Positions 2,250 to 20,166 of a DNA stretch of 64,000 bases are shown here, piece after piece. The notes beneath the pieces are model-generated. The model was given only the letters and a program-made list of their open reading frames with translations. It did no database searches and was not told where the DNA came from. The position numbers were made by a program, and so were the translations under genes. Source of the stretch: Methylobacterium sp. (GTDB taxonomy: Bacteria > Pseudomonadota > Alphaproteobacteria > Rhizobiales > Beijerinckiaceae); NCBI GenBank assembly GCA_013823325.1, contig PNLY01000004.1, forward strand, positions 1-64,000, in the 5' to 3' direction. Numbering within the stretch: the stretch's first letter is position 1; each line of letters opens with the position of its first letter.

Positions 2250-2335
2250 TATCGATTGACCACGTATAAGTCGAGTAATTGTATCTAGACCCCGTGGGAG
2301 CATCGCGAACTGCGAGCCCCTGAGGGGAGATGCAA

Positions 2336-3640: not shown

Positions 3641-3748
3641 ACCGATGCGCGCTCTCGCTCGAAGCCCGTCCGAACGAGACGACGAGGCCCCGCTCCGGGA
3701 GCCCTAGAGACACACCATCACGAACCACACCGGTATGATGAGGATCCG

Positions 3749-4765
3749 ATGCCCAATCTGGACAAGACCGTTCGCCTGGCCGCCGTTCAAGCCACGCCCG
3801 TTTTCCTGGACTGCGAACGCAGCACGCGGAAAGCCTGCAGCCTGATCCTCGAAGCAGGGCGCAAGGGAGCCGATGTCGTCGGATTCCCCGAGGGCTTCAT
3901 ACCCGGGCATCCGGGCTGGCAGGAGCTCATCCCGGCGACCTCGGAACTGGCTCTGACGCTCTCGCAGAAGCTGTTCAGGAACGCCGTCGAAGTCCCGGGG
4001 CCCTGTATCGACGCCCTCTCGGGAGCCTGCCGGGAGGCGGGGGTCATCGCGATCATCGGCATCAACGAAAAGCGCGCCGGCACGACGGGTTCGTTGTTCA
4101 ACACCCAGCTCTTCTTCGATCGAGACGGCTTTCTGCGGCACAAGCATCAGAAGATCGTCCCGACGATCGGCGAGCGGGTTGTTCACACGCCCGGCACAAC
4201 GGGGCGCAAGGCTTCAATGACGACGGATATCGGCACGGTGAGCGGCCTGCTTTGCGGCGAGAACGCAAACCCGCTCTTCCAGTATTCGATCGGCCTCGAC
4301 TATCCGCTCGTGCACGTCGCCTCCTGGCCGTCTCATTTCGGGCCCGGCCTCGCGCTGGACGGGCTGGGCATGGCGGAGGTCATCGCGGTCATCACGCAGG
4401 GATTGGCCTATGCCCTGAAGTGCTTCGTCATCAATAGTTGTGCAGCCGTCGACAGCTCGATCATCGATGCGTATGGGCTGGACGCACAGGCGCGCGCGTT
4501 CCTGGAAGAAGCGACCAATCACGGCGGGACCTGCATCATAGGCCCGGGCGGAAATATCGTTGCCGGCCCGCTGCCGCCCGGGGAAGATATTCTGTACGCA
4601 GACGTCAGTTTGTCGGACGTCATCATACCGAAATTCATTCATGATTTTGCGGGTCACTATAATAGGCCAGAGCTTTTTGGATCGATTCTGGCAGCGGGTA
4701 CAGATTCCGGGACATTCCGTGCGGATGAAACACCAGCAAGCAAGGAGCTCACTGCCCCTTCTTAG
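3749..4765 (+). CDS. Nitrilase (carbon-nitrogen hydrolase, aliphatic/aryl nitrilase type)
   Basis: Nitrilases hydrolyse organic nitriles to carboxylic acids and ammonia. The 338-residue protein has the complete Glu-Lys-Cys triad: E48 in GFPEGFIPG, K135 in HKHQKIVPT and C169 in LLCGENANPL. The CGEN-x-NPL form around the cysteine is the nitrilase signature, in contrast to the amidase or NAD-synthetase branches. Length matches the family (320-370). The gene follows the MHS transporter and is probably co-transcribed under the MocR-family regulator. The substrate cannot be read from the sequence; cyanide dihydratase or aldoxime-pathway roles are alternatives. Confidence 0.88.
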   Translation: MPNLDKTVRLAAVQATPVFLDCERSTRKACSLILEAGRKGADVVGFPEGFIPGHPGWQELIPATSELALTLSQKLFRNAVEVPGPCIDALSGACREAGVIAIIGINEKRAGTTGSLFNTQLFFDRDGFLRHKHQKIVPTIGERVVHTPGTTGRKASMTTDIGTVSGLLCGENANPLFQYSIGLDYPLVHVASWPSHFGPGLALDGLGMAEVIAVITQGLAYALKCFVINSCAAVDSSIIDAYGLDAQARAFLEEATNHGGTCIIGPGGNIVAGPLPPGEDILYADVSLSDVIIPKFIHDFAGHYNRPELFGSILAAGTDSGTFRADETPASKELTAPS

Positions 4766-5260: not shown

Positions 5261-7243
5261 TTACCTTTGCTCGTCGCGCTTTGGGCGCAGGTCCGCGAAA
5301 TGCCGGAGCACGGAGGCATCGTCCATGGTGGATACATCGCCGATGGCGGCTCCGAGATAGGCGGCCTTCGCTGCTCGCCTCATGATCTTGCCGTTGCGGG
5401 TCCGGGGTAGGCTGGAAACGGCATGAATCGCGTAGGGCCGGAATGGCTTTCCGAGCCGGCGTTCGATCTCTTCGCCCAGAACGTCCAGCCCGGCGGCAGC
5501 TCCCTTGCCCTCGCCGACAACCACGAACAGCACGAGCGCTTGCCCTTTGAGGGGATCGTCGATGCCAATCGCGGCAGCCTCGATGCACCCGGCCACGCCG
5601 GTCGCGATCTCCTCGACCTCTGCCGGGCCGACACGCTTTCCGGCGATCTTGAGCGTGTCGTCGGAGCGGCCATGGATTTCGAAGACCGAATGGGCGTGAT
5701 CGCCTGAGCGCCGCTTCAGGGCGAGATCGCCGTGGTGCCAGAGATCCGGAAAGCGTTGCCAATAGCTGTCGAGGTAGCGCGCGTCATCCCGCCAGAAGCT
5801 CCTGGTCATGCCGATGAACGGCGCGCGGATCACCAGTTCTCCAGCCTCGTTCTCCACGGGCAGGCCCTTGTCATCGACGACGTCGACGGCGATCGCCGGG
5901 GACGGCGCGTTGAACTCGGTGGAATGGATCGGCCTGACCACGACGCTGGAGAGCAGCGCCCCCGAGACCTCGGTCCCGCCGGTATAATTGATCACCGGGC
6001 AGCGGCCGGCGCCGATTTTTCGCGAGAACCAGGCCATATGCTCGTGGTCGATGACTTCCCCGGCCGTGATCAGGACACGCAGCGAAGACAAGTCGGCATC
6101 GGCCGGGACGGCGTCCGGCCCAGCAGCGGCGAGCGTACGGATCAGGGTCGGCGACGCTCCGAAATGGGTGACGCGATGGCGCGCGATCAACCGCGACAGC
6201 CGCCCGGTTTCCGGAAAATTGGGCGCGCCGTCATAGCAGATCAGCGTCGCGCCGCGCATGCCGGCGCCCAGCAGCGTGATCGGCCCGACGACCCAGCCCA
6301 TATCAGCCGGCCAGAGCCAGACATCCTGCCGGCCCAGGTCAAAGAGCAGCGCGGCGTCATGCGCGATCTTGAGTGGAAAACCCCCATGGGTGTGGACCGC
6401 GCCCTTGGGAGCTCCCGTCGTCCCCGAGGTGAAGATGATCATGAACGGGTCGTCGGGCGCCATCGAAACGGCGTCGACCGAGCCGGATGGCCCCGCGGCC
6501 AGGAGCGCGTGCCAGTCCTGCTCGAGGGCCGTTTCGTCAGGAGCAGGCTCCGGATCGGTGACAATGATCTCCGCGAGCTTCGGCAGACGGGCCCGAGCGG
6601 CTTCGACGGTCGCCAGCAGGTCGATCCATTTGCCGCGGCGGCGGAAGCCACGGGCCGCGATGAGGCATTTCGCCTCGGCGCTGCCCAGCCGGGCGACGAT
6701 CGCGTCGACGCCGAAACCGGAGAAGAGCGGCACCGCGATCGCGCCGATATGAGCGAGGCCGAGCAGCGTGGTCGCCGCCTCGATCCCGCTTGGCAGCATG
6801 ACGCCGACGCGGTCGCCCTTGCTGATTCCCCTGCTCCGCAGCGCATGGGCCATGCGCCAGACCTGGCCACGCAGCTCGGCATAGGTGAGAGCTTCGACGC
6901 TGCCGTCCTCGCGCTCGGCGACGATGGCGGGCTTGGCGGCGCAGACGGGATCATCCGCCCATTGCAGGACGCTGTCGGTGAGATTGAGCGCCCCGCCGAC
7001 GAACCAGCGCGGGAAGGCCGGACCCTGGGCGAGATCGAGAAAGTCCCGATAGGGCTGCTGCCAGCGGATAGCGAGAAAATCGAGTATCGCAGCCCAGTAT
7101 CGGGCAGGGTCCTCAACCGAGCGCCGCAGAAGCTCGTCGAAATCGGCATAGCCGGCCGTGCGCGCGAAACGCATGATCTGCGCATTCGCGATCGTCGCGT
7201 CGGACGGGGTCCAGAGCGCTCGAGCAGGTTCATGGCGCGTCAT
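5261..7243 (-). CDS. Acyl-CoA synthetase (AMP-dependent ligase)
   Basis: This 660-residue protein belongs to the acetyl-CoA-synthetase-like branch of the adenylate-forming enzymes, which activate a carboxylate with ATP and CoA. The phosphate-binding motif IIFTSGTTGAPKGAVH, the YTGGTE motif and the C-terminal catalytic-lysine region RTRNGKIMRR are all present. An N-terminal extension of about 100 residues corresponds to an ACAS_N-type region. The ATG at 7243 overlaps the dehydrogenase stop by 4 bases; the frame is open further upstream, but that sequence is out of phase with the dehydrogenase gene and is not protein-like. It is the last gene of the operon and probably activates an alicyclic or dicarboxylic acid. 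Confidence 0.85.
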   Translation of the reverse strand: MTRHEPARALWTPSDATIANAQIMRFARTAGYADFDELLRRSVEDPARYWAAILDFLAIRWQQPYRDFLDLAQGPAFPRWFVGGALNLTDSVLQWADDPVCAAKPAIVAEREDGSVEALTYAELRGQVWRMAHALRSRGISKGDRVGVMLPSGIEAATTLLGLAHIGAIAVPLFSGFGVDAIVARLGSAEAKCLIAARGFRRRGKWIDLLATVEAARARLPKLAEIIVTDPEPAPDETALEQDWHALLAAGPSGSVDAVSMAPDDPFMIIFTSGTTGAPKGAVHTHGGFPLKIAHDAALLFDLGRQDVWLWPADMGWVVGPITLLGAGMRGATLICYDGAPNFPETGRLSRLIARHRVTHFGASPTLIRTLAAAGPDAVPADADLSSLRVLITAGEVIDHEHMAWFSRKIGAGRCPVINYTGGTEVSGALLSSVVVRPIHSTEFNAPSPAIAVDVVDDKGLPVENEAGELVIRAPFIGMTRSFWRDDARYLDSYWQRFPDLWHHGDLALKRRSGDHAHSVFEIHGRSDDTLKIAGKRVGPAEVEEIATGVAGCIEAAAIGIDDPLKGQALVLFVVVGEGKGAAAGLDVLGEEIERRLGKPFRPYAIHAVSSLPRTRNGKIMRRAAKAAYLGAAIGDVSTMDDASVLRHFADLRPKRDEQR

Positions 7244-8385
7244 GCCGCCGCCTCCGCGAGCACATGGCGAGCGATGATCAGCTGCTGGATTTGCGAGGTG
7301 CCCTCGTAGAGTCGGAACAGTCGAACATCGCGATAGAAGCGCTCGACACCGTAATCGCCGATATAGCCGGCGCCGCCGTGAACCTGGACGGCGCGGTCGG
7401 CGACCCGCCCGACCATCTCGCTGGCGAACAGCTTGCAGCAGGAGGCGTCCCTTGCCATCGTGACGCCGGCATCGGCCCGCTTGGCCGTCTCCACGACCAT
7501 GCAGCGAGCGGCGAAGGCCTCCGCCTGCGAGTCGGCGATCATCGCCTGGATCAGCTGAAAATCGGCGATCGGGCGCCCGAATTGCCTGCGCTCGCGCGCA
7601 TAGCGCGCCATGTCCCCGATCAGGCGTTCGGCGATGCCGACGCAGAGCGCGGCGATGTGGACGCGCCCGCGATCGAGCGTGCGCATCGCCGTCGCGAAGC
7701 CCTTGCCGGGCTCGCCGAGAATGTTTGCCCGCGGGACCCGGCAGTTCTCCAGCACGACGTCGCAGACCGGCGCGCCTTGCTGGCCCATCTTCCGCTCCGG
7801 CCGGCCGAGCGAAAAGCCCGGCGCGTTCGGCTCGACGAGAAACGCGGAGATGCCGTCTGCTCCCTCGCCGCCGGTTCGGGCGAAAACGGTGAACAGGCCG
7901 GCATGAGAAGCGTTGGTGATGAAGCGCTTGGTGCCGTTGAGCAGCCATTCCTCCCCGTCCAGCCGGGCCTGACTGCGCAGCGACGCGGCGTCGGACCCCG
8001 CCTCGGGCTCGGTCAGCGCGAAGGAGGCGATGAGGTCTCCGGAAGCTAGACGCGGCAGATAGCGCGATTTCTGTTCATCCGTGCCTGTCAGGATGAGGCT
8101 GCGCGAGCCGATGCCGATATTGGTGCCGAACACCGACCGGAAGGCCGGCGACGTGCGGCCAAGTACAAGGACGACCTCGACTTCTTCCTCGACCGTCAGG
8201 CCGAGGCCGCCGAATTCCTCCGGGATGGTCAGGCCGAACAGGCCGAGCGCGCGCATCTGCTCGACCACCGAGGCGGGAACGGCATCCTCGCGGGCGACAC
8301 GCTCCTCGATCGGCACCAGTACCTCGCGGACGAAGCGCGAGACCGTGTCGAGCAGCGTGGCGAACAGCGCTTCGTCGCGGATCAT
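7240..8385 (-). CDS. Acyl-CoA dehydrogenase
   Basis: This 381-residue FAD enzyme introduces a 2,3-double bond into acyl-CoA. FAD- and substrate-binding motifs include FALTEPEAGSDAASLR and the C-terminal LYEGTSQIQQ, in which the glutamate is the usual catalytic base. RRQFGRPIADFQLIQ is also typical. The start overlaps the stop of the BadI-like gene by 4 bases and the end overlaps the acyl-CoA synthetase start, so all are translationally coupled. In this context the substrate could be a pimeloyl-CoA-like or cyclohexanecarboxyl-CoA thioester, but this is inferred. Confidence 0.88.
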   Translation of the reverse strand: MIRDEALFATLLDTVSRFVREVLVPIEERVAREDAVPASVVEQMRALGLFGLTIPEEFGGLGLTVEEEVEVVLVLGRTSPAFRSVFGTNIGIGSRSLILTGTDEQKSRYLPRLASGDLIASFALTEPEAGSDAASLRSQARLDGEEWLLNGTKRFITNASHAGLFTVFARTGGEGADGISAFLVEPNAPGFSLGRPERKMGQQGAPVCDVVLENCRVPRANILGEPGKGFATAMRTLDRGRVHIAALCVGIAERLIGDMARYARERRQFGRPIADFQLIQAMIADSQAEAFAARCMVVETAKRADAGVTMARDASCCKLFASEMVGRVADRAVQVHGGAGYIGDYGVERFYRDVRLFRLYEGTSQIQQLIIARHVLAEAAA

Positions 8386-9182
8386 CGCTGCGCCGCCCGC
8401 GTGCGAAACTGCGGCTTGCGCTTCTGAAGGAAGGCCTCGACGCCCTCGCGGGATTCAGCCGAGGCGTAGAAGAGCGCCAGCGCCTCGAAACCGAGGGAGC
8501 CGATCGCACGGATATTCTCGCTGTCGGCATTGAACGACCGCTTGGCAATCGCCAGCGCCGTCGGGCTCTTCTCGAGAATCTCGGCGCACCAGGCGTCGAT
8601 CTCGGCGTCGAGACAGTCATGCGGCACGACGGCGTTGACGAGGCCCATCTCGAGTGCCTGCGCGGCGCTGTAGCGCCGGCAGAGGAACCAGAGTTCCCGG
8701 GCCCGCTTCTCACCGATGCCGCGGGCCAGAAGGGCGGTGCCGAAGCCGGGATCGACCGAGCCGACCTTCGGGCCGACCTGACCGAAGACCGCCTGTTCCG
8801 AGGCGATGGCGAGATCGCAGACGGTGACGAGGACATTGCCGCCACCGATGGCATAGCCCTGCACGCGCGCGATCACCGGCTTCGGCACGTCCCGGATCAG
8901 GCTCTGGACCTCGTCGATCGGCAGGCCAATCGTTCCGCGGCCGCCATAGCTGCCTGCATGGCCTGACTGGTCTCCGCCTGTGCAGAAGGCGCGCTCGCCG
9001 GCGCCGCCGAGGACAATGACGCCGATCTCGCGATCCGCGCCAGCGTCGGTGAAGGCTGCGAGCAGTTCGTCGACGGTCTGCGCCCGAAAGGCGTTCATCT
9101 TCTCGGGGCGGTCGATGGTGATCCGCGCGACGCCGTCGCGCTTGTCGTAGCGGATATCCGAGAATTCCCGGGCGATGGCCAT
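8382..9182 (-). CDS. badI: BadI-like 2-ketocyclohexanecarboxyl-CoA hydrolase (crotonase family)
   Basis: The 266-residue protein is closer to the MenB/BadI branch than to ordinary enoyl-CoA hydratases. Segments such as RAFCTGGDQS, GRGTIGLP, VIARVQGYAIGGGNVL and GQVGPKVGSVDPGFGTA match what I recall of Rhodopseudomonas BadI, which opens the ring of 2-ketocyclohexanecarboxyl-CoA to pimeloyl-CoA. Length and C-terminal pattern (SREGVEAFLQKRKPQFR) also fit. The ATG is preceded by GAGGAG. No BadH, BadK or benzoyl-CoA reductase genes are near, so the ring substrate must come from another source, perhaps the adjacent transaminase. DHNA-CoA synthase is a less likely alternative because no menaquinone genes surround it. 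Confidence 0.8.
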   Translation of the reverse strand: MAIAREFSDIRYDKRDGVARITIDRPEKMNAFRAQTVDELLAAFTDAGADREIGVIVLGGAGERAFCTGGDQSGHAGSYGGRGTIGLPIDEVQSLIRDVPKPVIARVQGYAIGGGNVLVTVCDLAIASEQAVFGQVGPKVGSVDPGFGTALLARGIGEKRARELWFLCRRYSAAQALEMGLVNAVVPHDCLDAEIDAWCAEILEKSPTALAIAKRSFNADSENIRAIGSLGFEALALFYASAESREGVEAFLQKRKPQFRTRAAQR

Positions 9183-9200
9183 GTCTTCTCCTCGTTGATC

Positions 9201-10565
9201 TCAGGGCTGGCGGTGCGAGCGCGGTACGAGAGTCGCGAGTGCGTGATCGAGCGCATCGAAGCCGAAAGCGAGTTCCTCGCGGCCGATCGTCAGCGGCGGC
9301 GCGACAAGAACGATGTTGTAGCGGCCATAGGCGTGAACGCGGCGCTCGAGCAGAGTCGCATAGAAGCGCTTCATCGGCCCGGAGCCGCCCGGATGATGCC
9401 AGCCGACGAGCGGAGCCCTGGTCTCAGGATCGGAGATGAGTTCGAGTCCGAACAGCGCGCCGGCCCCCCTGACGTCGCCGACAACACCGGCATGCTTCGC
9501 CTGCAGGGCGCCGAGACCCTCTCGTAACCAGGCCTCGATCTCGATCGCGCGCTCGAACAGGCCTTCCTCCTCATAGACCTGGAGTGCGGCGAGCCCGCCC
9601 GCGACCGCCAGCACATGGCCGGCATGGGTGTGGCCGACATCGAAGAGCTCGGCATCGAAGAAGCGGGCGAGTCGCTCACGGACGAGAACGCCGCCGAGCG
9701 GAGTGTAGGACGAGCTTGCCCCCTTGGCGAAGGACAGCAGATCGGGCGCGACGCCGAAGCGGATGCTCGCAAAAGCCTTCCCGACCCGCCCGAATCCGGT
9801 CATCACCTCGTCGAAAGCGAGTAGGATGCCATGGCGGTCGCAGATCGTGCGCAAACCTTCGAGATATCCTGGCGGATAGACGACGAGCCCGCTCGATCCG
9901 GTCATCGGCTCCAGCATGATCGCGGCGACATTGGCGGCGCCCTCATGCAGGAGAATGCGTTCGACATGATCGAGCGCGCGCGCAGTCTCCTGCGCCGCGG
10001 TCTCGGCGTGGAACGGTGATCGGTAGGGGTAGGGTGCAAAGAACCGAACGATGCCGGGGATGTTCGGGAAGGGGTCGCGCCAGCGATCGACCCCGGTCAG
10101 CGCGCTGCCGCCGATTGTGCTGCCGTGATAGGAGCGATAGGCTGACAGGATCTTGGGACGACGGGTGACCAGCCGCGCGATCTTGACCATGTCGTCATTG
10201 GCCTCGGCACCGCCCGAGGCGAAATGGGCGCGCGCGCCTTCCTCGGGCCAGGGCGAGATCCGTGACAGCGCCTCGGCATAATCGGCGCGCACCTCGTTGA
10301 AATAGCTCGACGCTGTCCAGCAGAGCTTCTCGGCCTGCCGCTGGATGGCCTCGACCACCTTCGGATGACCATGGCCGAGGGATACGGCGACATAGCCGCT
10401 GGTGAGGTCCAAATAGCGCTTTCCGTGATTGTCGAAGAAGAAGCTGCCGGAACCCCGCTCGATGATCGGCGGGTTCAGGTTGCCCTGAACCGCCCAGGGC
10501 GTGAGGACCTTGCGATATTTGGCGGGAGCGGCCCTGTCGGTCGCGCTGTGAATTTGCAGGTCCAC
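9201..10565 (-). CDS. Class III (omega/beta-type) aminotransferase
   Basis: This is a 454-residue PLP-dependent transaminase. It shows the GGAEAND motif near residues 118-124, the DEVMTGFGR motif at 252-260 and the PLP lysine K281 in SFAKGASS. Class III enzymes act on amino groups away from the alpha-carbon, such as beta-alanine, omega-amino acids or amines, with pyruvate or 2-oxoglutarate as acceptor. GTG at 10565 is the likely start, with GAGG about 10 bases upstream. It is the first gene of the operon and diverges from the LysR gene. Followed by a CoA ligase and a ring hydrolase, it may deaminate an alicyclic beta-amino acid. Confidence 0.86.
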   Translation of the reverse strand: MDLQIHSATDRAAPAKYRKVLTPWAVQGNLNPPIIERGSGSFFFDNHGKRYLDLTSGYVAVSLGHGHPKVVEAIQRQAEKLCWTASSYFNEVRADYAEALSRISPWPEEGARAHFASGGAEANDDMVKIARLVTRRPKILSAYRSYHGSTIGGSALTGVDRWRDPFPNIPGIVRFFAPYPYRSPFHAETAAQETARALDHVERILLHEGAANVAAIMLEPMTGSSGLVVYPPGYLEGLRTICDRHGILLAFDEVMTGFGRVGKAFASIRFGVAPDLLSFAKGASSSYTPLGGVLVRERLARFFDAELFDVGHTHAGHVLAVAGGLAALQVYEEEGLFERAIEIEAWLREGLGALQAKHAGVVGDVRGAGALFGLELISDPETRAPLVGWHHPGGSGPMKRFYATLLERRVHAYGRYNIVLVAPPLTIGREELAFGFDALDHALATLVPRSHRQP

Positions 10566-10715
10566 GTGGTCGGCGCCTCGTCATCACGCGATCTCGCTCC
10601 TGCCCGGACAGTGGATAGGCTCGAATATCGTGAGGGTTGTTTGGAACTTCCTTCGTTTTCTGCCATTCAATCCGGCGCTACAAATCGAGATATCTGGGGC
10701 TGAGGCTCAACTGAG
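10566..10715. promoter_or_regulatory. Divergent promoter region between aminotransferase and LysR genes
   Basis: The 150-base gap is AT-richer than the flanking genes and separates two divergent units in the usual LysR arrangement. LysR proteins typically bind such gaps through T-N11-A sites. I saw candidate AT-rich elements around 10620-10665 but no repeat strong enough to name. Confidence 0.4.
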
Positions 10716-11645
10716 ATGAGTCAAGAACGACGTCGGCTGCCACCTTTGAACGCGATCAGGGCATTCGAGGCCGCGGCCCGGCGCGGCGGATTCCATGCAG
10801 CTGGCAGTGAGCTCAACGTCTCGGCCAATGCCGTCGGCCGCCTGGTCAAGGTGCTGGAGGACTGGCTCGGCGTTCCGCTGTTTCGTCGGCTGCCGCGCGG
10901 CGTCGTCCTGACCGAAGGCGGACGCAGCTATCTGGCGCGCGTCGCGAGCATTCTCGACCAGTTGAGCGAAGCCACCGCCGATCTGCAGCGCATCGAGGCC
11001 TCGCAGACCCTGACCGTCAGCGCGATGCCCTCCTTCGTCTCGCGCTGGCTGGTCCCGCGCCTTGGCCGGCTGACCGACAACTATCCCGATCTGGACGTCC
11101 GCATCCTGGCCTCGGTGCCGCTGACCGATTTCTCGCGCGAGGAGGTCGACATCGCCATTCGCCTTGGACGGGGCAGCTATCCCGGCCTGACCAGCGAACT
11201 GCTGCTACAGGAGGAGTTCTACCCGGTTTGCAGCCCGGCGCTGCTCGCCAAGGGACCGCCGCTGCGCACGCCCGAGGATCTCGCTGGCCATGTTCTGCTC
11301 CATGACGAATGGGAGGCACGGATCCCCGATCAGCTCGACTGGACGCGATGGGTGCAGGAAGTCGGCGCCGGCGGGATCGATACGCAACGCGGCATCCGAT
11401 TCTCGTTCTCGCATATGACGCTGCAGGCTGCCGTGGCAGGACAGGGCGTGGCGCTGGCCAGTTCTGCGCTGGCCGGGGAGGATCTGAAGAGCGGCGCGCT
11501 GGTGCGGCCGTTCGGCCCGCTCTCTGTCAGCGGTCCCTACGGCTTCCATCTCGTCTGGCCTCCAGCGGCCGCGGACCGGGAAAAGGTCGCCATCTTCCGG
11601 GAATGGGCAAAGACGGAAGTCGCCGCATTGCCGGAGCAAGGCTAA
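10716..11645 (+). CDS. LysR-family regulator, GcvA-like
   Basis: This 309-residue regulator has an N-terminal helix-turn-helix (PPLNAIRAFEAAARRGGFHA through VGRLVKVLEDWLGVPLFRR) of the GcvA subgroup and a C-terminal effector-binding domain with SFSHMTLQAAVAGQGVALAS. It lies divergent to the aminotransferase operon and in line with the peptide-type ABC transporter, so it is the natural candidate to control both in response to the imported substrate or an intermediate. Confidence 0.86.
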   Translation: MSQERRRLPPLNAIRAFEAAARRGGFHAAGSELNVSANAVGRLVKVLEDWLGVPLFRRLPRGVVLTEGGRSYLARVASILDQLSEATADLQRIEASQTLTVSAMPSFVSRWLVPRLGRLTDNYPDLDVRILASVPLTDFSREEVDIAIRLGRGSYPGLTSELLLQEEFYPVCSPALLAKGPPLRTPEDLAGHVLLHDEWEARIPDQLDWTRWVQEVGAGGIDTQRGIRFSFSHMTLQAAVAGQGVALASSALAGEDLKSGALVRPFGPLSVSGPYGFHLVWPPAAADREKVAIFREWAKTEVAALPEQG

Positions 11646-11803
11646 ATTTTACTGAGCCTGAGGCCAACAATTATGGATTTGCGACAAAGCTGAGCCGCCC
11701 GGAAGATCGAGTCAATAAAGGGGAAGCCTAAGTTTTTGAAGGCCTGGCGAAGCTCCGGGCCGGTTTGGCGCAGGTCCCCGTGAACTCTTCCGGAGTCTGC
11801 TCG

Positions 11804-13408
11804 ATGGCCCTCTCCAAGTCCAGCCGCTGCATCTCGGCCATGCTGCTCGCGCTCTGTGCCACGGCTCTGCCGGCCCCTGCGACCACGGCTCAGGCCGCGA
11901 CGATCAAATGGGCATCCCAGGAAGATGCGGCGACGATGGACCCGCATGCCTTCAACCACGGCATGACCCTGACCGTGTTGCAGCACATCTACGAGGGGCT
12001 CGTCCGGCGCGACGCGGAGTCACGGATCGAGCCCGCGCTCGCAACGTCGTGGACGAACCCGTCCCCGACCGTCTGGCGGTTCAAGCTTCGCGAGGGCGTC
12101 ACCTTCCATGACGGCACGCCGTTCGGCGTCGAGGACGTCGTCTTTTCGCTCAAGCGCGCCATGGCTCCAGGCTCCGACATGAAGGTGTTCACAGCGTCGC
12201 TTACCGATGTCGTGGCCGGAGCCGAAGCCAATACGGTCGAACTCAGGACGAGCAGTCCGAACCCGGCGCTGCTGCAGTCGCTTCCAGAACTGCGGATCAT
12301 GTCGAAGGCCTGGGCCGAGAGGCACGGCGCCACGGCGCCGGCGGACTTCAAGAAGAACGCCGAGAACTTCGCCACGCGCAGTGCCAACGGGACCGGCCCG
12401 TTCCGTCTCGTCGAGCGCCAGCCCGACATTCGCACCGTGCTGCAGGCCTATCAGGGCTGGTGGGACAAGGCGCCGCGTTCCGTCACTGAGGCGACCCTCG
12501 TCAAGATCGGCGCGGACGCGACCCGGGTCGCCGCCCTGCTCTCGGGCGAGGTCGATTTCGCCTATCCGGTACCGATCCAGGACATCGACCGGGTCAACGC
12601 CTCCGGCAAGGCGAAGGTGCTGCAAGGTACCGAGGTTCGCGCGATGTTTCTCGCCATGGATCTCCACCGCGACGAGCTGCTCTACTCGGATGTGAAGGGC
12701 AGGAATCCGTTCAAGGATGCGCGCGTCCGGCAGGCGATCTATCAGGTGATCGACGTCGAGGCGATCAACGCCCGGCTGATGCGCAACACCGCCAAACCAA
12801 TCGGCGAGGTGCTGCCCTCGGACATCAACTCCTTCGACAACGCCCTCAATCGGCGCGAATTCAAGTTCGACCCCGCAGCCGCGCGCAAGCTGATCGAGGA
12901 AGCCGGGTATCCGAAGGGCTTCCAGATCACGCTCGATTGCCCGAACGACCGCTACATCAACGCGGAGCGTGTCTGCCAGGCACTCGCTGCCATGCTGGCC
13001 AGGATCGAGATCCGGGCCTCGGTGAACGCAATCCCATCGTCCAAGTTCTTCGCGAAGATCGGCGCTCGCGACACGAGCCTCTGCTTCTTCGGTTACGGAC
13101 CTTCCGATTTCGACGCCTACAATCCTCTGAACGTCATCGTCCAAACGCCGGACAAGGGCGGGGCCGGCCAGTGGAATGTCGGCAACTACTCGAACGCCGA
13201 GGTCGACGCCGCCATCAACCGGGTCAAGGACGAGCCGGACGCGTTACGGCGCCAGGCGGCCGTCAGCCAAGCCCTTACGATCCACAAACGCGAGATCGGC
13301 CATATTCCGCTCTACCAGCCCGGCATCACCTGGGGCGCCCGAACCGGGGTTGAGACCGCCGTCCAGAACGATAACCGCGTCAATCTCCGCTTTTTCACCG
13401 TGAAATGA
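11804..13408 (+). CDS. ABC transporter substrate-binding protein, family 5 (dipeptide/oligopeptide type)
   Basis: This 534-residue periplasmic binding protein starts with a Sec signal peptide that probably ends at AQA (about residue 32). It has family-5 features such as WRFKLREGVTFHDGTPF and the central DARVRQAIYQVID segment. ATG at 11804 has GGAG at the right distance; an upstream in-frame start at 11765 would place the signal sequence inside the protein. It heads an operon with two permeases, two ATPases and an amidohydrolase, so the ligand is likely a peptide-like or N-acylated compound. Confidence 0.88.
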   Translation: MALSKSSRCISAMLLALCATALPAPATTAQAATIKWASQEDAATMDPHAFNHGMTLTVLQHIYEGLVRRDAESRIEPALATSWTNPSPTVWRFKLREGVTFHDGTPFGVEDVVFSLKRAMAPGSDMKVFTASLTDVVAGAEANTVELRTSSPNPALLQSLPELRIMSKAWAERHGATAPADFKKNAENFATRSANGTGPFRLVERQPDIRTVLQAYQGWWDKAPRSVTEATLVKIGADATRVAALLSGEVDFAYPVPIQDIDRVNASGKAKVLQGTEVRAMFLAMDLHRDELLYSDVKGRNPFKDARVRQAIYQVIDVEAINARLMRNTAKPIGEVLPSDINSFDNALNRREFKFDPAAARKLIEEAGYPKGFQITLDCPNDRYINAERVCQALAAMLARIEIRASVNAIPSSKFFAKIGARDTSLCFFGYGPSDFDAYNPLNVIVQTPDKGGAGQWNVGNYSNAEVDAAINRVKDEPDALRRQAAVSQALTIHKREIGHIPLYQPGITWGARTGVETAVQNDNRVNLRFFTVK

Positions 13409-13433
13409 GCCGGGTGGGAGCGGCGGGTTGCCG

Positions 13434-14405
13434 ATGATCATGTTCATCCTTCGACGCTGTCTGCAGGCAGCCCTGGTGCTGGCGGCGGTGTCCTTTGTCT
13501 CCTTCGCGGTCTTTCGCTATGTCGGCGATCCCGTCTCGCAAATGGTCGGGGTCGACGCCACCGCCGAGCAGCGCGAGCAGATCAGGCACGATCTCGGCCT
13601 CGACCAGCCATTCTATGCTCAGTTCGGACGCTTCGTCGCCGGCGCCGTGCAGGGGAACTTCGGCCTGTCGCTCAAGCAGGGCCGCCCTGTCGGCGAGCTG
13701 ATGCGCGAACGCGTGCCGGCCACGCTCGAACTCAGCTTCGTTTCGGGCGCCCTCGCCGTGCTCGTTGGCGTACCGCTCGGTGTAGTTTCGGCGATCTGGC
13801 GAAGATCCTGGCTCGCCAGGGCAGCGATGGCGCTGTCGCTGCTCGGGATTTCGCTGCCGACTTTCTTCATCGGCGTGGTCCTGATCCTCGTCTTCGGCGT
13901 CGAGGCGGGCTGGCTGCCTTCCTTCGGCCGCGGCGAGACGGTCGCGCTCGGTAACGGCTGGTCGACGGGGCTGCTGACCCTGGACGGGTGGCGGCATTTG
14001 CTCCTGCCGGCGATCACGCTCGCGCTGTTCCAGCTGGCGCTGATCATCCGGCTGGTCCGCGGCGAGATGCTGGAGGTGCTACGCAGCGACTTCATCCACT
14101 TCGCGCGGGCGCGCGGCCTCTCGTCCTTCTCGATCTATTTCCGCCATGCCCTGCGCAATGCGCTGGTCCCGGTGGTGACCATCATCGGCCTCCAGCTCGG
14201 ATCCATCATTGCCTTCGCGCTGGTGACCGAGACCGTCTTTCAATGGCCTGGCATGGGCTTGCTATTCGCGCAGGCGGTGGCCTTCGCGGACGTCCCTGTG
14301 ATGGCGGCTTATCTGTGCCTCATCGCGCTGGTCTTCGTCACGATCAACCTCGCCGTCGATCTTCTCTATTTGCTGATCGACCCCCGCGTCCGTTCCAAAA
14401 TCTGA
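13434..14405 (+). CDS. ABC transporter permease, DppB type
   Basis: This membrane protein of about 323 residues has the DppB/OppB layout: one N-terminal membrane segment, a periplasmic loop containing DLGLDQPFYAQFGRF, then five further segments with the EAA-type loop FARARGLSSFSIYFRHALRN that contacts the ATPases. ATG at 13434 is preferred; GGGAG lies about 20 bases upstream, and an in-frame TTG at 13428 is possible. It works with the second permease at 15618. Confidence 0.88.
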   Translation: MIMFILRRCLQAALVLAAVSFVSFAVFRYVGDPVSQMVGVDATAEQREQIRHDLGLDQPFYAQFGRFVAGAVQGNFGLSLKQGRPVGELMRERVPATLELSFVSGALAVLVGVPLGVVSAIWRRSWLARAAMALSLLGISLPTFFIGVVLILVFGVEAGWLPSFGRGETVALGNGWSTGLLTLDGWRHLLLPAITLALFQLALIIRLVRGEMLEVLRSDFIHFARARGLSSFSIYFRHALRNALVPVVTIIGLQLGSIIAFALVTETVFQWPGMGLLFAQAVAFADVPVMAAYLCLIALVFVTINLAVDLLYLLIDPRVRSKI

Positions 14406-14418
14406 TCAAGGCAGTGTC

Positions 14419-15621
14419 GTGTCCAACACCCTCGCTGACCAATTTTCTCATCCGATCATCGCAGCAATCGCGCCTTTCCAGGCGGAATATGTCGCGATCA
14501 GGCGCGATCTCCACGCCCATCCAGAACTCGGCTTCGAGGAGGTGAGGACGGCAAATGTAGTCGCCGATGCTCTGGTCCGCTTCGGCGTCGACGAAGTGCA
14601 TCGGGGCGTCGGCCGCACAGGGGTTGTCGGTGTGATCCGCGGGAGCGGGCCCCCAGGCAACGGCGCCGTCGGCCTGCGCGCGGACATGGATGCGCTGCCC
14701 ATCCAGGAGGAAGCGCAACCGCCCTATCGCTCGACCGTTCCCGGCAAGATGCATGGCTGCGGCCATGATGGGCATACGACGATGCTGCTCGCCGCAGCGC
14801 GCTACCTGGCGCAGACGCGGCGCTTCAATGGAACGGTCTATCTCTATTTTCAGCCGGGTGAAGAGGGGCATGCAGGCGCCCGAGCCATGATCGAGGATGG
14901 CTTGTTCGAGCGCTTTCCGGCCGACGCGGTCTACGCGCTGCACAACTGGCCGTCACTGCCAGCCGGCGCGGTTGGGCTGAACCGCGGGTCGATGATGGCG
15001 GGGATCGATCGATTCAGCCTGCGCATCTTCGGACGGGGCGGCCATGGCGGCCATCCCCAGCACACGATCGATCCGATCACCGCCGCCGCGCAGATCGTGA
15101 TGGGGATCCAGTCGATCGTGCCGCGCAATCTCAGCCCGTTCGACAGCGGCGTCATCGGCCTCCATCACATCGAGGCCGGGACGAAAGGGGCGCTGAGCAT
15201 CGTCCCTGACAGCCTGTCCATCTCAGGCATGGTCAAATGGTATCGCCGAGAGGTGCAGGAGGTGCTCGAACGGCGCCTGCGCCAAGTCTGCGAGAACGGG
15301 GCCGCGAGCTTCGACGCCCGGGCCGAATTGTCCTACGAAGCGCTGTATCCCCCGACGGTCAATTCCCCCGACGAGGCGAGACTGGTCGAAAACGTGGCCA
15401 GGGCCATCGTCGGCGAGGAGCGGGTCTTTCTCGACCTCGAACCGAGCATGGGCTCGGAGGATTTCTCCTTCATGCTGCTGGAGCGGCCGGGTGCCTACTT
15501 CCGCCTGGGGACCGGCAATCCGACGCCGCTGCACAACCCGTCCTACGATTTCAACGACGAGATCATTCCAGTGGGCGCGGCGGTCTTCGCCGGCATCGTC
15601 GAGGAGCAGTTGCGCGGATGA
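14419..15621 (+). CDS. M20-family amidohydrolase (hippurate hydrolase/IAA-amino acid hydrolase type)
   Basis: The 400-residue enzyme hydrolyses N-acyl amino acids. The metal-site motifs are clear: HGCGHDGHTTM, the glutamates of QPGEEGHAGA and a late histidine in PLHNPSYDFND. RRDLHAHPELGFEE is the family N-terminal signature. It lacks a signal peptide and so acts in the cytoplasm. The GTG at 14419 starts 14 bases after the first permease, and its stop overlaps the second permease start. Its place inside the importer operon indicates that the transporter brings in a conjugate that this enzyme cleaves. Confidence 0.9.
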   Translation: MSNTLADQFSHPIIAAIAPFQAEYVAIRRDLHAHPELGFEEVRTANVVADALVRFGVDEVHRGVGRTGVVGVIRGSGPPGNGAVGLRADMDALPIQEEAQPPYRSTVPGKMHGCGHDGHTTMLLAAARYLAQTRRFNGTVYLYFQPGEEGHAGARAMIEDGLFERFPADAVYALHNWPSLPAGAVGLNRGSMMAGIDRFSLRIFGRGGHGGHPQHTIDPITAAAQIVMGIQSIVPRNLSPFDSGVIGLHHIEAGTKGALSIVPDSLSISGMVKWYRREVQEVLERRLRQVCENGAASFDARAELSYEALYPPTVNSPDEARLVENVARAIVGEERVFLDLEPSMGSEDFSFMLLERPGAYFRLGTGNPTPLHNPSYDFNDEIIPVGAAVFAGIVEEQLRG

Positions 15622-16577
15622 GCTCGCTAGATGCCTCGGCGGCCCGCAAGTCGCGCCCCGGTCCCGCCGCTCTCGTCGTCGCCTTCTTGCGATCGGAGAT
15701 CATGCAGGACCTGCGCCGCGACAAGCTCGCCATGATCGCCGCGATCGTGACCCTGGCTCTCGTCCTGATCGCTTTACTGGCACCGCTGATCGCGCCGTTC
15801 GACCCTTACGACTTGCGCCAGGTCGACCTGCTGGATTCGATGCTGCCGCCGGCCTGGGCGGAGGGCGGGCAGGCGAAATATCTCCTCGGCACCGACGATC
15901 AGGGCCGCGACCTGCTCTCGACCTTGCTCCTCGGGCTGCGCCTGTCGCTCGTCGTCGCGCTTGCGTCGGTGACGCTGTCGATGGCGGTCGGCGTCTCCAT
16001 CGGCCTGATAGCTGGCTTTTTAAGGGGGCCGCTCGACGCGATCGTCATGCGCATCGCCGATATCCAGCTCTCGTTCCCGGCGCTCCTCATAGCCTTCCTG
16101 GCCGACGGGATCGCGCGGGCTGCGCTGCCGCACCATGTCGTTGCCGAGATGTCGGTGGTCGTGATCGTCTGCTCGATCGCGCTCGCCGGCTGGGTCCAGT
16201 ATGCCCGGACGATTCGCGGCGTTACCCTGGTCGAATGTGACAAGGATTATGTGCAGGCGGCGCGGCTGAGCGGCACTTCGACGCTGAAGATCGCGCTGAA
16301 GCACGTGCTGCCGAACGTCGCCGGCCCGTCGCTCGTCCTCGCGACGGTCCAGATCGCCACCGCCATCGTGACCGAGTCGACCCTCTCTTATCTCGGCGTC
16401 GGCGTTCCCGCCACGGAGCCCTCGCTCGGAACGCTCGTGCGCATCGGCAACGACTATCTCTTCTCGGGCTCCTGGTGGGTCGCGGTGTTTCCCGGCTTGA
16501 CGCTGGTCGCCATCGTGTTCGCGACCAATCTCCTCGGTGATTGGCTGCGCGACGCCACGAATCCCAGACTTGGATAA
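15618..16577 (+). CDS. ABC transporter permease, DppC type
   Basis: The 319-residue protein shows the DppC/OppC pattern: a cytoplasmic N-terminus, one membrane segment (AMIAAIVTLALVLIALLAPL), the YLLGTDDQGRDLLS periplasmic signature and a C-terminal five-segment bundle with an EAA loop at DYVQAARLSGTSTLKIALKH. The ATG at 15618 overlaps the amidohydrolase stop by 4 bases. Confidence 0.88.
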   Translation: MSSLDASAARKSRPGPAALVVAFLRSEIMQDLRRDKLAMIAAIVTLALVLIALLAPLIAPFDPYDLRQVDLLDSMLPPAWAEGGQAKYLLGTDDQGRDLLSTLLLGLRLSLVVALASVTLSMAVGVSIGLIAGFLRGPLDAIVMRIADIQLSFPALLIAFLADGIARAALPHHVVAEMSVVVIVCSIALAGWVQYARTIRGVTLVECDKDYVQAARLSGTSTLKIALKHVLPNVAGPSLVLATVQIATAIVTESTLSYLGVGVPATEPSLGTLVRIGNDYLFSGSWWVAVFPGLTLVAIVFATNLLGDWLRDATNPRLG

Positions 16578-16588
16578 GGGGCGCGAGC

Positions 16589-17620
16589 ATGTCGCAGCCT
16601 GTGCTGGAGGTCCGTGACCTCAAGGTGGAATTCGTATCGCCGCGTGCCGATCGTCCCCCGCTGCAGACGCTTCGCGGCGTGTCGCTCGACATTGCCGCGG
16701 GAGAGATCCTTGGTCTGGTCGGCGAGTCGGGAGCCGGCAAGTCGCTGACCGGCGCCGCCGTGCTCGGGCTTCTCGCCGGCGGAGGACGGATTAGCGGTGG
16801 CGAGATCCGCTTCTCCGGGCAGCGCATCGATCGGTTGCCCGAGGCCGAGATTCGCGTTCTCCGAGGCTCGCGGATCGGCGCCGTCTTCCAGGATCCGATG
16901 ACGGCGCTCGACCCGCTCATGACGGTGGGAGAGCAGTTGGTGGAAACGATCAGGACGCATCGCCGGCTGTCGCGGAGGCAGGCGCGGGACCATGCCGCCT
17001 CCCTGCTCGATTCGGTCGGGGTTCCGGCGGCTGCCCGGCGACTGTCCCAGTATCCGCATCAGTTCTCGGGCGGCATGCGACAGCGCGTCGTGCTCGCCTT
17101 GGCGATGGCGGGGGAGCCGGACTTGCTGATCGCCGACGAGCCGACCACCGCGCTGGATGTTTCGGTCCAAGCCCAGGTTCTCGCGCTCTTCCGCGAACTC
17201 TGCGACGCGCGCGGCACGGCGGTGATGCTGGTCACTCACGACATGGGCGTGGTCGCCGAGATCTGCGATCGGGTCGGCGTGATGTATGCCGGGCGCATCG
17301 TCGAGATCGGCAGCGTCGACGATGTCCTGGAACGTCCGGCCCACCCGTATACGGAGGGACTGCTCCGCTCGATACCGGCGCTGGATGCCCCGCGCGAGCC
17401 GCGGCTCTGGCAAATTCCGGGCGCGATGCCGCGCCCGGCGGCCGTGCCTGAGGGCTGCGCCTATCATCCACGCTGCCCGCGGGCCCAGGAAATTTGCCGG
17501 CGCGGTAACACCCCATTGCTCGGGGTTTCGATGCGCGATGTCGCTTGTCACTTTCCGAACCGCTCCTGGAGCTCTACCGTCTCGATCGGCCGCAGCTCCG
17601 CTGCGGAGGCACGGCCATGA
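16589..17620 (+). CDS. ABC transporter ATP-binding protein, DppD type
   Basis: The 343-residue ATPase carries Walker [10 protein letters not shown], the signature [16 protein letters not shown] and Walker [14 protein letters not shown]. The C-terminal oligopeptide extension with [14 protein letters not shown] is typical of DppD/OppD and can bind a [4Fe-4S] cluster in some members. The start at ATG 16589 follows the second permease by 11 bases. Confidence 0.9.
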
Positions 17621-18636
17621 CCGTTGAGCCACAGGATCCGGGCCCCGGGTCGATGCTGGTCGTCGAGGGGCTGAGCAAGTCGTTTCAACAGGGAACGCCG
17701 CTGTTTCGGCGGCTTGCGGGCAAGGCACCGATCGTTCACGCAGTCGACGATGTCAGCCTGACGATCGCGAGAGGCGAGACGCTCGCCCTGGTCGGTGAAT
17801 CCGGTTGCGGCAAGTCAACCTTCGCGCGGACCGTGATGGGGCTGGAGCGCCCCAGCGCCGGGATCATTCGCTTCGACAGCCAACCGCTCGCCCCGTCGGT
17901 GTCCGACCGTCCGGCGAAGCTGCGCCGCAGCATGCAGATGATCTTCCAGGACCCCTATACGAGCCTGAACGGGCGCTGGCGCGTCCGCGACATCGTCGCC
18001 GAGCCGATCCGTGAAGGACAGGGCGATCTCTCTCAAAGTGCGATCAACGAGCAGGTGGGAGAGTTGCTGGTGAAGGTCGGCCTTTCGCAAGACGATCTCG
18101 CCAAATATCCGCATCAGTTCTCGGGCGGGCAGCGCCAGCGGATCGCGATCGCGCGCGCGATCGCGACGGCGCCGGCTTTCCTGGTCTGCGACGAGCCGAC
18201 ATCGGCGCTCGATGTCTCGGTCCAAGCCCAGATCCTCAATCTGATGTGCGAGCTGCGCGAACAGAGCGAGGGGCTGACCAGCCTTTTCATTTCGCACAAC
18301 CTCGCCGCGGTCCGCCATTTCGCCGATCGGGTCGGCGTTATGTATCTTGGCCGGCTGGTCGAAGTCGCACCGGCGCAGGAGCTGTTCGAGGCTCCGCAGC
18401 ATCCCTATACGCAGATGCTGCTCGCTGCGGTTCCGGGCAAGCGCCGCGGGCAGGGCAAGGCCGGAATCCAAGGCGAACTTCCCAATCCGCTCGCCCCGCC
18501 AACGGGCTGCGCCTTCAATCCTCGCTGCCCCCTTGCCGTCGACCGTTGCCGCAGCGAGCGTCCCGTGCTGGCCGCGTCGCGATTGAAACCGGCGAGAAGC
18601 GTTGCATGTCATGTCGCCACTGTCTCGTCGGTGTGA
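17617..18636 (+). CDS. ABC transporter ATP-binding protein, DppF type
   Basis: This 339-residue ATPase pairs with the DppD-type protein. It contains Walker A GESGCGKSTFAR, the signature FSGGQRQRIAIARAIA, Walker B LVCDEPTSALDVS and the C-terminal CAFNPRCPLAVDRC segment. The ATG at 17617 overlaps the preceding stop by 4 bases. It is the last gene of the transport operon; decayed mobile DNA begins directly after it. Confidence 0.9.
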   Translation: MTVEPQDPGPGSMLVVEGLSKSFQQGTPLFRRLAGKAPIVHAVDDVSLTIARGETLALVGESGCGKSTFARTVMGLERPSAGIIRFDSQPLAPSVSDRPAKLRRSMQMIFQDPYTSLNGRWRVRDIVAEPIREGQGDLSQSAINEQVGELLVKVGLSQDDLAKYPHQFSGGQRQRIAIARAIATAPAFLVCDEPTSALDVSVQAQILNLMCELREQSEGLTSLFISHNLAAVRHFADRVGVMYLGRLVEVAPAQELFEAPQHPYTQMLLAAVPGKRRGQGKAGIQGELPNPLAPPTGCAFNPRCPLAVDRCRSERPVLAASRLKPARSVACHVATVSSV

Positions 18637-19287: not shown

Positions 19288-20166
19288 CTACCCTCGCTTT
19301 GACCGATCCAAATATGCAGTCAAGATGGCTCCGCACATGATGATCGCGCTTGGAATTACCAGACTTTGATTGAGTGGCTCGCCAAACAGTAGCGCGCCGG
19401 CGCCCGCGAGCGCTGGAATTCGCAACGTGTCCAGGGCGGCGACCTGGACGGCGGTGCCATGGCGCGTTGCCTGGCTGAGTGACGCTTGCGTCATATAGCC
19501 AGAAACAGCCATCAGAACGACCGCAAACAGCAGTGTAGCCGTCCCGTGCGCGAAGAGCGTGGTCGTCGTCAGGGCCGAAGATGGAAGCTTGAGTGCCTCG
19601 GATCCCACTATGCTCAACGCTACGAAGATTGCGAGCTGTATGATATTCATCAGAAACAATATTGAACGTGTAGATTGTCTTTCGCTCAGAACTCCCAACA
19701 TGATATTTGTGCAGGTCAGAATGCCGACGCCCGCAAATGGAATGATGATCGCGAAGCCGATCACATCCATATATTGAAACACGATCGCCGCCGCTCCGGC
19801 GAAAATCAGGCCAAATCCGATCCATGCGAAGCGCGCCGGCCGCGTCCGGAAAGCGAAGGCGCCGATGGCGGCCGCGAACAAGGGTCCACTGAACTCGATG
19901 CTCGCCACCAGGCCCAGCGGCAGATTAGCGACACTCCAGACCACCGCGATCGCGCCCATGGCATGCAGGGCGCTCCGAGCCAGATGCAGCGGCAGGCGCG
20001 AGCGCCAGACCTCGCGAAACAGCTTGCGGTCGCGCCAACCCAGGGCGAGACCGATCGCCAACCCACCGGCCGAGCGTATGGCGAGAATTTCCGGATACGA
20101 GAGGTCGAGCTTTAGTTGACGGATCGCGACAGCGAGGAGGAAATAGGCGAAGACGTTTCCGGCCAT
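19288..20166 (-). CDS. DMT-superfamily (EamA-type) transporter
   Basis: The 292-residue protein has about ten hydrophobic segments in two repeats, for example VFAYFLLAVAIRQL, GLVASIEFSGPLFAAAIGAF and LLFAVVLMAVSGYMT, typical of EamA drug/metabolite exporters. I placed the start at ATG 20166; the open frame reaches further up to 20298, but that part overlaps the carbamoyltransferase gene and is not membrane-like. The end of the carbamoyltransferase frame overlaps the transporter start by about 55 bases, so the two are probably co-transcribed, and the exporter may handle a product of that enzyme. The substrate is unknown. Confidence 0.75.
   Translation of the reverse strand: MAGNVFAYFLLAVAIRQLKLDLSYPEILAIRSAGGLAIGLALGWRDRKLFREVWRSRLPLHLARSALHAMGAIAVVWSVANLPLGLVASIEFSGPLFAAAIGAFAFRTRPARFAWIGFGLIFAGAAAIVFQYMDVIGFAIIIPFAGVGILTCTNIMLGVLSERQSTRSILFLMNIIQLAIFVALSIVGSEALKLPSSALTTTTLFAHGTATLLFAVVLMAVSGYMTQASLSQATRHGTAVQVAALDTLRIPALAGAGALLFGEPLNQSLVIPSAIIMCGAILTAYLDRSKRG

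Follow-up and report, generated by a model that had tools for sequence, protein, structure and literature searches.

What could a bacterium gain from keeping a peptide-type importer, an amidohydrolase, a transaminase, a coenzyme A (CoA) ligase and a ring-opening hydrolase side by side? This question is raised by positions 5261-18636 of the DNA analysed here (the window: 64,000 nucleotides of contig PNLY01000004.1 in the Methylobacterium sp. assembly GCA_013823325.1), for which a reading of the letters alone, hereafter the sequence-only reading, had proposed uptake, cleavage and ring opening of a conjugated alicyclic beta-amino acid such as 2-aminocyclohexanecarboxylate. On balance we favour the view that the two operons form one catabolic unit for such a conjugate; the gene families, their coupling, the recurrence of the set and the conserved residues come from sequence, and from these we infer the reactions, their order and the substrate. 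The evidence that carries this view is the presence of the same set in two other bacteria, in loci arranged differently from one another, together with a hydrolase that falls among BadI proteins in quick trees and a genome in which the first enzyme of the usual route to BadI was not found.

Gene content of the locus

All of the named genes are intact open reading frames (ORFs) in two divergent operons, oriented as first described, and the gene families were confirmed with NCBIfam and Pfam taken together (the second permease was assigned by NCBIfam only and the two ATPases by Pfam only).

5261-7243, minus strand: acyl-CoA ligase, AMP-forming, acetate/acetoacetate type (ACAS_N plus AMP-binding; PF16177, PF00501, PF13193)
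7240-8385, minus strand: acyl-CoA dehydrogenase (ACAD; Pfam Acyl-CoA_dh N, M and 1)
8382-9182, minus strand: BadI-like 2-ketocycloalkanecarboxyl-CoA hydrolase, crotonase fold (best family TIGR03210 badI)
9201-10565, minus strand: class III pyridoxal-phosphate transaminase, PRK06062 subfamily (NF004718), first gene of the minus-strand operon
10566-10715, no strand: divergent intergenic region of 150 bases between the transaminase and LysR genes (from the gene layout)
10716-11645, plus strand: LysR-type regulator, GcvA subfamily (NF008352, 331.3 bits, cut-off 288)
11765-13408, plus strand: family 5 periplasmic substrate-binding protein (PF00496)
13428-14405, plus strand: DppB/OppB-type permease (PF00528, PF19300)
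14419-15621, plus strand: M20 amidohydrolase, ILR1/YxeP type (TIGR01891), between both permease genes
15618-16577, plus strand: DppC/OppC-type permease (NCBIfam Opp4C, Opp2C and DppC models, each below its cut-off)
16589-17620, plus strand: DppD/OppD-type ATPase (PF00005, PF08352; listed ORF start 16541)
17617-18636, plus strand: DppF/OppF-type ATPase (PF00005, PF08352; listed ORF start 17545)

On the minus strand the transaminase gene is followed, after a gap of 18 bases, by the genes of the BadI-like protein, the ACAD and the ligase, with ATGA start/stop overlaps coupling BadI-like to ACAD (8382-8385) and ACAD to ligase (7240-7243). The same kind of overlap joins the M20 gene to the second permease gene and the two ATPase genes to each other on the plus strand. 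The start codon of the binding protein is uncertain (11765, 11780, 11804 or 11840), and the G+C content of the unit's genes (0.645-0.684) is similar to that of the window (0.668).

Recurrence of the gene set in two other bacteria

A search for the same genes elsewhere, as the sequence-only reading had advised, located the set in Variovorax paradoxus VAI-C and in a genome of the same family as the host (G079). On the Variovorax plasmid CP063167, the transaminase, BadI and ligase genes form an operon that points away from a GcvA-type LysR gene and converges with an importer operon in which the M20 gene lies between the permease genes. The proteins are 48% (LysR), 72% (transaminase), 75% (BadI), 51% (ligase), 59% (M20), 62% (binding protein), 62 and 61% (permeases) and 58 and 59% (ATPases) identical to those of the window. 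The same divergent layout of regulator and transaminase in both places suggests that 10566-10715 is a probable shared control region. In G079, genes for the binding protein (57% identity to the window's), M20 (63%), BadI-like protein (54%), ligase (42%) and transaminase (75%) are consecutive on one strand; within a 20 kb stretch around them no permease homologue was found, and the only ATPase matches are 28-33% identical and lie on the opposite strand.

Three layouts with one set indicate that it is the set and not the layout that is conserved, and this recurrence makes it very likely that both divergent units function together, in line with what had been claimed for them. It is also more than would be expected by chance: BadI-like matches were present in 22 of 199 family genomes at an E-value limit of 1e-70, 21 of the 22 holding a single match, and with one copy in roughly 6 Mb we estimate, as a rough figure, that a rare transaminase would lie within 10 kb of it by chance in a few per ten thousand genomes. 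BadI linkage is present in both other transaminase copies found at at least 70% identity. Were the two operons instead separate, a general peptide importer with its M20 peptidase would simply lie next to an unrelated ring-cleavage operon; linkage between Dpp/Opp importers and M20 hydrolases, both widespread, is frequent, and the M20 peptidase beside a transaminase relative in Thermus (see below) has no BLAST match above 60 bits to that of the window. With both units together in Variovorax in another layout, and the G079 binding protein and M20 in a row with the BadI-like protein, ligase and transaminase, we regard this explanation as very improbable.

The BadI-like protein as a putative ring hydrolase

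The BadI-like protein scores 432.9 bits with TIGR03210 (badI), the best of all families, against 331.5 and 311.1 bits with the two best MenB models; with a difference of about 100 bits, MenB identity was rejected, and the separation from MenB rests on these model scores. The curated cut-off of TIGR03210 (467.6 bits) is a tight one, as even a BadI encoded in an unmistakable ali/bad operon, that of Paracoccus, reaches only 463.9 bits, and the Bradyrhizobium and Acidisphaera proteins exceed it with 469.1 and 488.7 bits. A comparison of BadI proteins by phylogeny had been suggested from the letters, and a quick tree of 103 rows joins the window copy to that of Variovorax as its sister (98% in the Shimodaira-Hasegawa-like approximate likelihood ratio test, SH-aLRT) and nests the pair among 90 BadI-like rows from many proteobacteria. 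For this tree, matches shorter than 200 residues or containing stops were removed, as were the loci of the three cluster copies; a tree of 42 rows recovered the same sister pair at 97% SH-aLRT, and neither tree held a named MenB row. Among 109 near-invariant columns, defined as at least 95% conserved in 90 homologues whose identity to that of the window is 60% or more, 108 are kept in the window and 107 in Variovorax.

Residue 80 of the window protein (8943-8945), which directly precedes the GRG motif, is Gly, as in Variovorax, versus Asp in 82 of the 90 homologues, making it a possible specificity change. The G079 protein lies on a long branch apart from the other two in the quick tree. A single clade of the three cluster copies is not rejected by the approximately unbiased (AU) test (p 0.424), and despite the separation in the quick tree we do not claim an independent second recruitment of BadI in G079.

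The relationship of BadI to MenB has a further implication, for the available part of PMC5380842 describes the two as related enzymes with opposite reaction directions. The unit could thus be biosynthetic, the BadI-like enzyme acting as a MenB-like cyclase and the transaminase making a cyclic beta-amino acid such as cispentacin. The importer and M20 hydrolase suggest use of an external compound, and an export or amide-forming gene was not seen in the unit with NCBIfam and Pfam, so that biosynthesis appears the most improbable of the explanations considered here.

The transaminase as a candidate source of the ring ketone

With 544.5 bits, the transaminase passes the curated cut-off of NF004718 (PRK06062; 472 bits). 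Among solved structures it is closest in sequence to taurine:2-oxoglutarate aminotransferase (6jix), taurine being a beta-amino sulfonate. A ring ketone usually reaches BadI through AliA, AliB, a hydratase and BadH, and the Paracoccus operon has genes for AliA, AliB and BadH beside that of BadI. A search of the host genome, which is 95.49% complete, did not find AliA, the best match scoring 225.4 bits against a cut-off of 792.3, and the enzyme is likely absent from this host. None of badH, aliA and aliB is among the unit's genes, BadH and AliB not having been searched genome-wide. BadI has a single strong match in the genome (432.6 bits), besides two of about 146 bits. With AliA not found genome-wide and BadH not seen among the unit's genes, the transaminase is a plausible maker of the ketone for BadI; as ketone maker it would act on an amine at the ring carbon next to the carboxyl-bearing one, that is, on a cyclic beta-amino acid. 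The same two results led us to reject the cyclohexanecarboxylate pathway proper and, with the position in the BadI clade, support the cyclic beta-keto intermediate suggested in the sequence-only reading.

Such a pairing is foreign to ordinary badI loci. Any transaminase-like match was present in only 3 of 80 BadI loci from named genomes, at 28-32% identity, with matches below 30% of the query length filtered out and many of the loci short; the window transaminase was found in none of 31 selected badI-locus genomes searched whole at an E-value limit of 1e-90.

A relative 58% identical to the window transaminase is encoded on a Thermus thermophilus megaplasmid (NC_017588) with no BadI alongside. 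At 10556-18556 of that locus, genes for a methylmalonate-semialdehyde dehydrogenase, the PRK06062 transaminase, a short-chain dehydrogenase/reductase (SDR), an M20 peptidase and an importer stand in a row, which looks like a free linear beta-amino acid route. The locus resembles that of the window in its transaminase with M20 peptidase and Opp-type importer genes, and differs in that the dehydrogenase and SDR replace the ligase and BadI and in an M20 protein unlike the window's.

A conjugated linear beta-amino acid might accordingly be the substrate of the window unit as well, with the transaminase yielding a linear beta-keto acid, the ligase converting this to its CoA ester and the BadI-like enzyme cleaving a linear beta-ketoacyl-CoA hydrolytically or doing something else. 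The Thermus relative, which sits with a semialdehyde dehydrogenase and without BadI, a ligase type that takes in acetoacetate ligases and the divergence of the G079 BadI-like protein are all compatible with this. The window and Variovorax proteins lie within the BadI clade with nearly all of its near-invariant columns, and a linear beta-ketoacyl-CoA would need just a common thiolase. A linear substrate is hence quite unlikely in our judgement, and the synteny with a linear route that was named at the outset as a possible refutation was seen only for this 58% relative, where BadI does not adjoin.

The CoA ligase and the order of the steps

The ligase gave its best scores with the models of acetate and acetoacetate ligases, 441.7 bits with TIGR02188 (acetate-CoA ligase; cut-off 724.95) and 334.1 bits with TIGR01217 (acetoacetate-CoA ligase; cut-off 520.9), both far below their cut-offs, and has the N-domain of acetyl-CoA synthetase (ACS). 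In ACS the acyl pocket is limited by the second Trp of motif WWQTE, which aligns with Gly in TGGTE of the window ligase, and INYTGGTE is identical in all three cluster ligases despite 42-51% identity. Relatives were of no help in assigning a function to the ligase. At loci L117 (7099-9935), L118 (8031-11538) and L119 (13330-16114), ligase relatives of 41-52% identity are paired with a PRK07327 crotonase, in L118 and L119 additionally with an SDR of PRK06125, as part of a CoA pathway that is so far unassigned; the crotonase is of no known role, and a further such locus (L120) is unannotated.

The ligase step proposed by the sequence-only reading thus stands as far as the type is concerned, which includes activators of acetoacetate, a beta-keto acid. 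Family evidence favours transamination before ligation, and we keep the reverse order as the main rival. There, a cyclic beta-amino acyl-CoA would be formed first and transaminated as the CoA ester, with no free beta-keto acid. A precedent is Kat, the 3-aminobutyryl-CoA aminotransferase of lysine fermentation, a class III enzyme that, according to the available part of PMC3149608, transaminates a beta-amino acyl-CoA and requires the thioester; its likeness to the window enzyme consists of beta-transamination beside acyl-CoA chemistry. Kat, described there as HemL-like, takes a linear CoA ester and has no ring hydrolase with it, whereas the window transaminase belongs to another subfamily, PRK06062. 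The ligase-first order would also avoid the spontaneous decarboxylation seen with beta-phenylalanine (PMC6150868, available part). Set against this order are the nearest solved relative of the transaminase, which takes a free beta-amino sulfonate, and the Thermus relative, which adjoins a dehydrogenase of a kind using free semialdehydes. In addition, acetoacetate ligases accept free beta-keto acids. Taken together, ligation before transamination is unlikely, if less so than the linear substrate.

The acyl-CoA dehydrogenase

A role of the ACAD in the pathway had been claimed, and the gene is intact and coupled in the window; the conserved set does not need it. Because it is absent from both related clusters, the ACAD is dispensable for the set and is an addition of this host, though translation-coupled there. 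It reached no equivalog cut-off and is neither PimC nor PimD (80.5 bits versus 623.85 with TIGR03204; 103.2 versus 652.7 with TIGR03203). Relatives of 60-61% identity occur no more than 10 kb from an ordinary badI in 7 of the 80 loci, in one of them (L096) directly before badH-badI. It is plausible that the enzyme oxidises the ring-opened dicarboxyl-CoA.

In the L096 row (7868-13853), the genes for the ACAD (61% to the window's), BadH and BadI are followed by an ORF without a name and by a gene resembling caprolactamase alpha (475 of 1000 bits), so that a cyclic amide may perhaps be fed into ring cleavage there.

The M20 hydrolase and the importer

The M20 protein scores 347.3 bits with TIGR01891, over the cut-off of 153.75, and it matches the solved structures 1xmb (ILR1-like 2) and 1ysj (YxeP). 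The ILR1/YxeP-type group of M20 enzymes cleaves amide conjugates. Motifs CGHDGH and PGEE of the M20 metal site are present together with HNWP. No signal peptide was evident on the M20 protein by eye, and the conjugate would therefore enter the cell whole. Comparison of the binding protein with solved structures indicates no more than peptide-like or related substrates.

Proposed pathway and its weak points

Combining these observations, it is proposed that the Dpp/Opp importer would take up an alicyclic beta-amino acid in amide-conjugated form, either N-acylated or dipeptide-like, and the cytoplasmic M20 hydrolase would free the amino acid from the conjugate. The class III transaminase would convert the ring C-N into a ketone to yield a 2-oxocycloalkanecarboxylate, and the ligase, of acetoacetyl-CoA synthetase/ACS type, would form its CoA ester. 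Ring opening by the BadI-like hydrolase, in a reverse Dieckmann reaction, would then provide a dicarboxyl-CoA (pimeloyl-CoA from a six-membered ring) for beta-oxidation, which in this host probably starts with the coupled ACAD. The ring is probably six-membered and 2-aminocyclohexanecarboxylate the likeliest core, because hardly any of the residues conserved in the six-ring enzymes is changed in the BadI-like protein; no other part of the proposal is as weak as this one.

Several points weigh against the proposal as a whole. The BadI-like protein is below the curated TIGR03210 cut-off, and nine residues common to the window and Variovorax copies occur in less than 10% of the other homologues, which may mark a changed substrate. 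The G079 protein keeps just 84 of the 109 near-invariant columns and scores slightly higher with one MenB model (316.5 bits) than with badI (308.0 bits). Ligase relatives of about 51% identity pair with a different crotonase, PRK07327; the ACAD has no match in the G079 stretch and none is annotated in the Variovorax cluster; and BadH was sought among the unit's genes only. To our knowledge, alicyclic beta-amino acids in conjugated form are not among the common nutrients in nature. The weak point raised with the original proposal, that free 2-keto-ring acids decarboxylate easily, is real, as beta-phenylalanine degraders lose their free beta-keto acid as acetophenone in vivo according to the available part of PMC6150868.

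Distribution and host genome

The transaminase is rare. It was matched in 2 of 298 family genomes (the window's and G079) and, in other samples, in 1 of 385 class, 1 of 398 phylum, 1 of 67 genus and 1 of 259 order genomes, each time in the window's own genome. Two further samples gave 1 of 4 and 1 of 32 genomes or records, and another, which held no positive control, gave none of 349. These overlapping samples were searched at E-value limits of 1e-90 to 1e-120, with a first pass limited, in the large ones, to scoring a few candidates from each genome, and every hit fell in G079, on the Variovorax plasmid or in the genome of the window itself. Among 72,556 plasmid records, 13 matched at 1e-100 (Variovorax 1, Thermus 12). 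With the set in 1 of 67 genus genomes and on a betaproteobacterial plasmid, it has probably spread horizontally. The host assembly comprises 234 contigs with 4.61% estimated contamination, for which reason a foreign contig as the source of the locus is improbable rather than impossible.

Neighbouring genes

Upstream of the unit, at 2330-4765 on the plus strand, a major facilitator superfamily (MFS) transporter gene is followed by that of a carbon-nitrogen hydrolase, for which Nit6803 is the closest nitrilase model (177.6 of 502.6 bits). The nitrilase was set aside as a member of the unit, being unmatched in the G079 stretch and unannotated in that of Variovorax; an MFS gene of 40% identity adjoins the G079 operon, and the window's MFS gene may thus belong to the unit. 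On the minus strand at 19288-21149, two ORFs share about 190 bases, one for an EamA transporter (19288-20298) and one resembling aspartate/ornithine carbamoyltransferases (20112-21149); their start codons may be misplaced.

Relation to known systems and significance

The closest known system is the badHI-aliAB cyclohexanecarboxylate pathway (Rhodopseudomonas palustris; ali/bad operon of Paracoccus sp. MC1862), in which a ring hydrolase of the same clade acts on a 2-oxo ring acyl-CoA; the window protein is 67% identical to the Paracoccus copy. The window unit differs in that AliA, AliB and BadH are not seen in it, the ketone would come by transamination, and the unit includes an importer and an M20 hydrolase as well. 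Routes that start from beta-amino acid transaminases (taurine aminotransferase; the beta-phenylalanine transaminases of Variovorax and Paraburkholderia) are alike in turning a beta-amino group into a beta-oxo acid, and to these the window adds a CoA ligase and a ring hydrolase, with a transaminase of subfamily PRK06062. EchA20, the HIEC-CoA hydrolase of the last steroid rings, is likewise a ring-opening crotonase performing a reverse Dieckmann reaction; as given in the available part of PMC5380842, it differs in its steroid substrate and is 24% identical to BadI.

No pathway of alicyclic beta-amino acid catabolism was among the matches listed in the open literature, from which subscription papers are mostly missing, and how bacteria degrade cyclic beta-amino acids looks like a nearly blank field. 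What appears new is the recurrence of the set in two other bacteria, which strengthens the partly supported sequence-only reading, and a ring ketone probably formed by transamination instead of the usual route. More tentatively, and with chances that we put somewhat below even, the unit may represent a dedicated, horizontally scattered pathway for peptide-like alicyclic beta-amino acid conjugates, in which one transaminase replaces the dehydrogenase-hydratase-dehydrogenase series before BadI and, in the boldest form, acts on the CoA ester.

Cyclic beta-amino acids occur in antifungals and serve in designed peptides. If this bolder reading is true, such conjugates, be they synthetic or natural antifungals like cispentacin, would be real nutrients. 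A gene set freeing, deaminating and ring-opening cyclic beta-amino acids would explain their mineralisation and offer a simple growth test, and could provide practical enzymes in the form of a cyclic beta-amino acid transaminase and its matching ligase.

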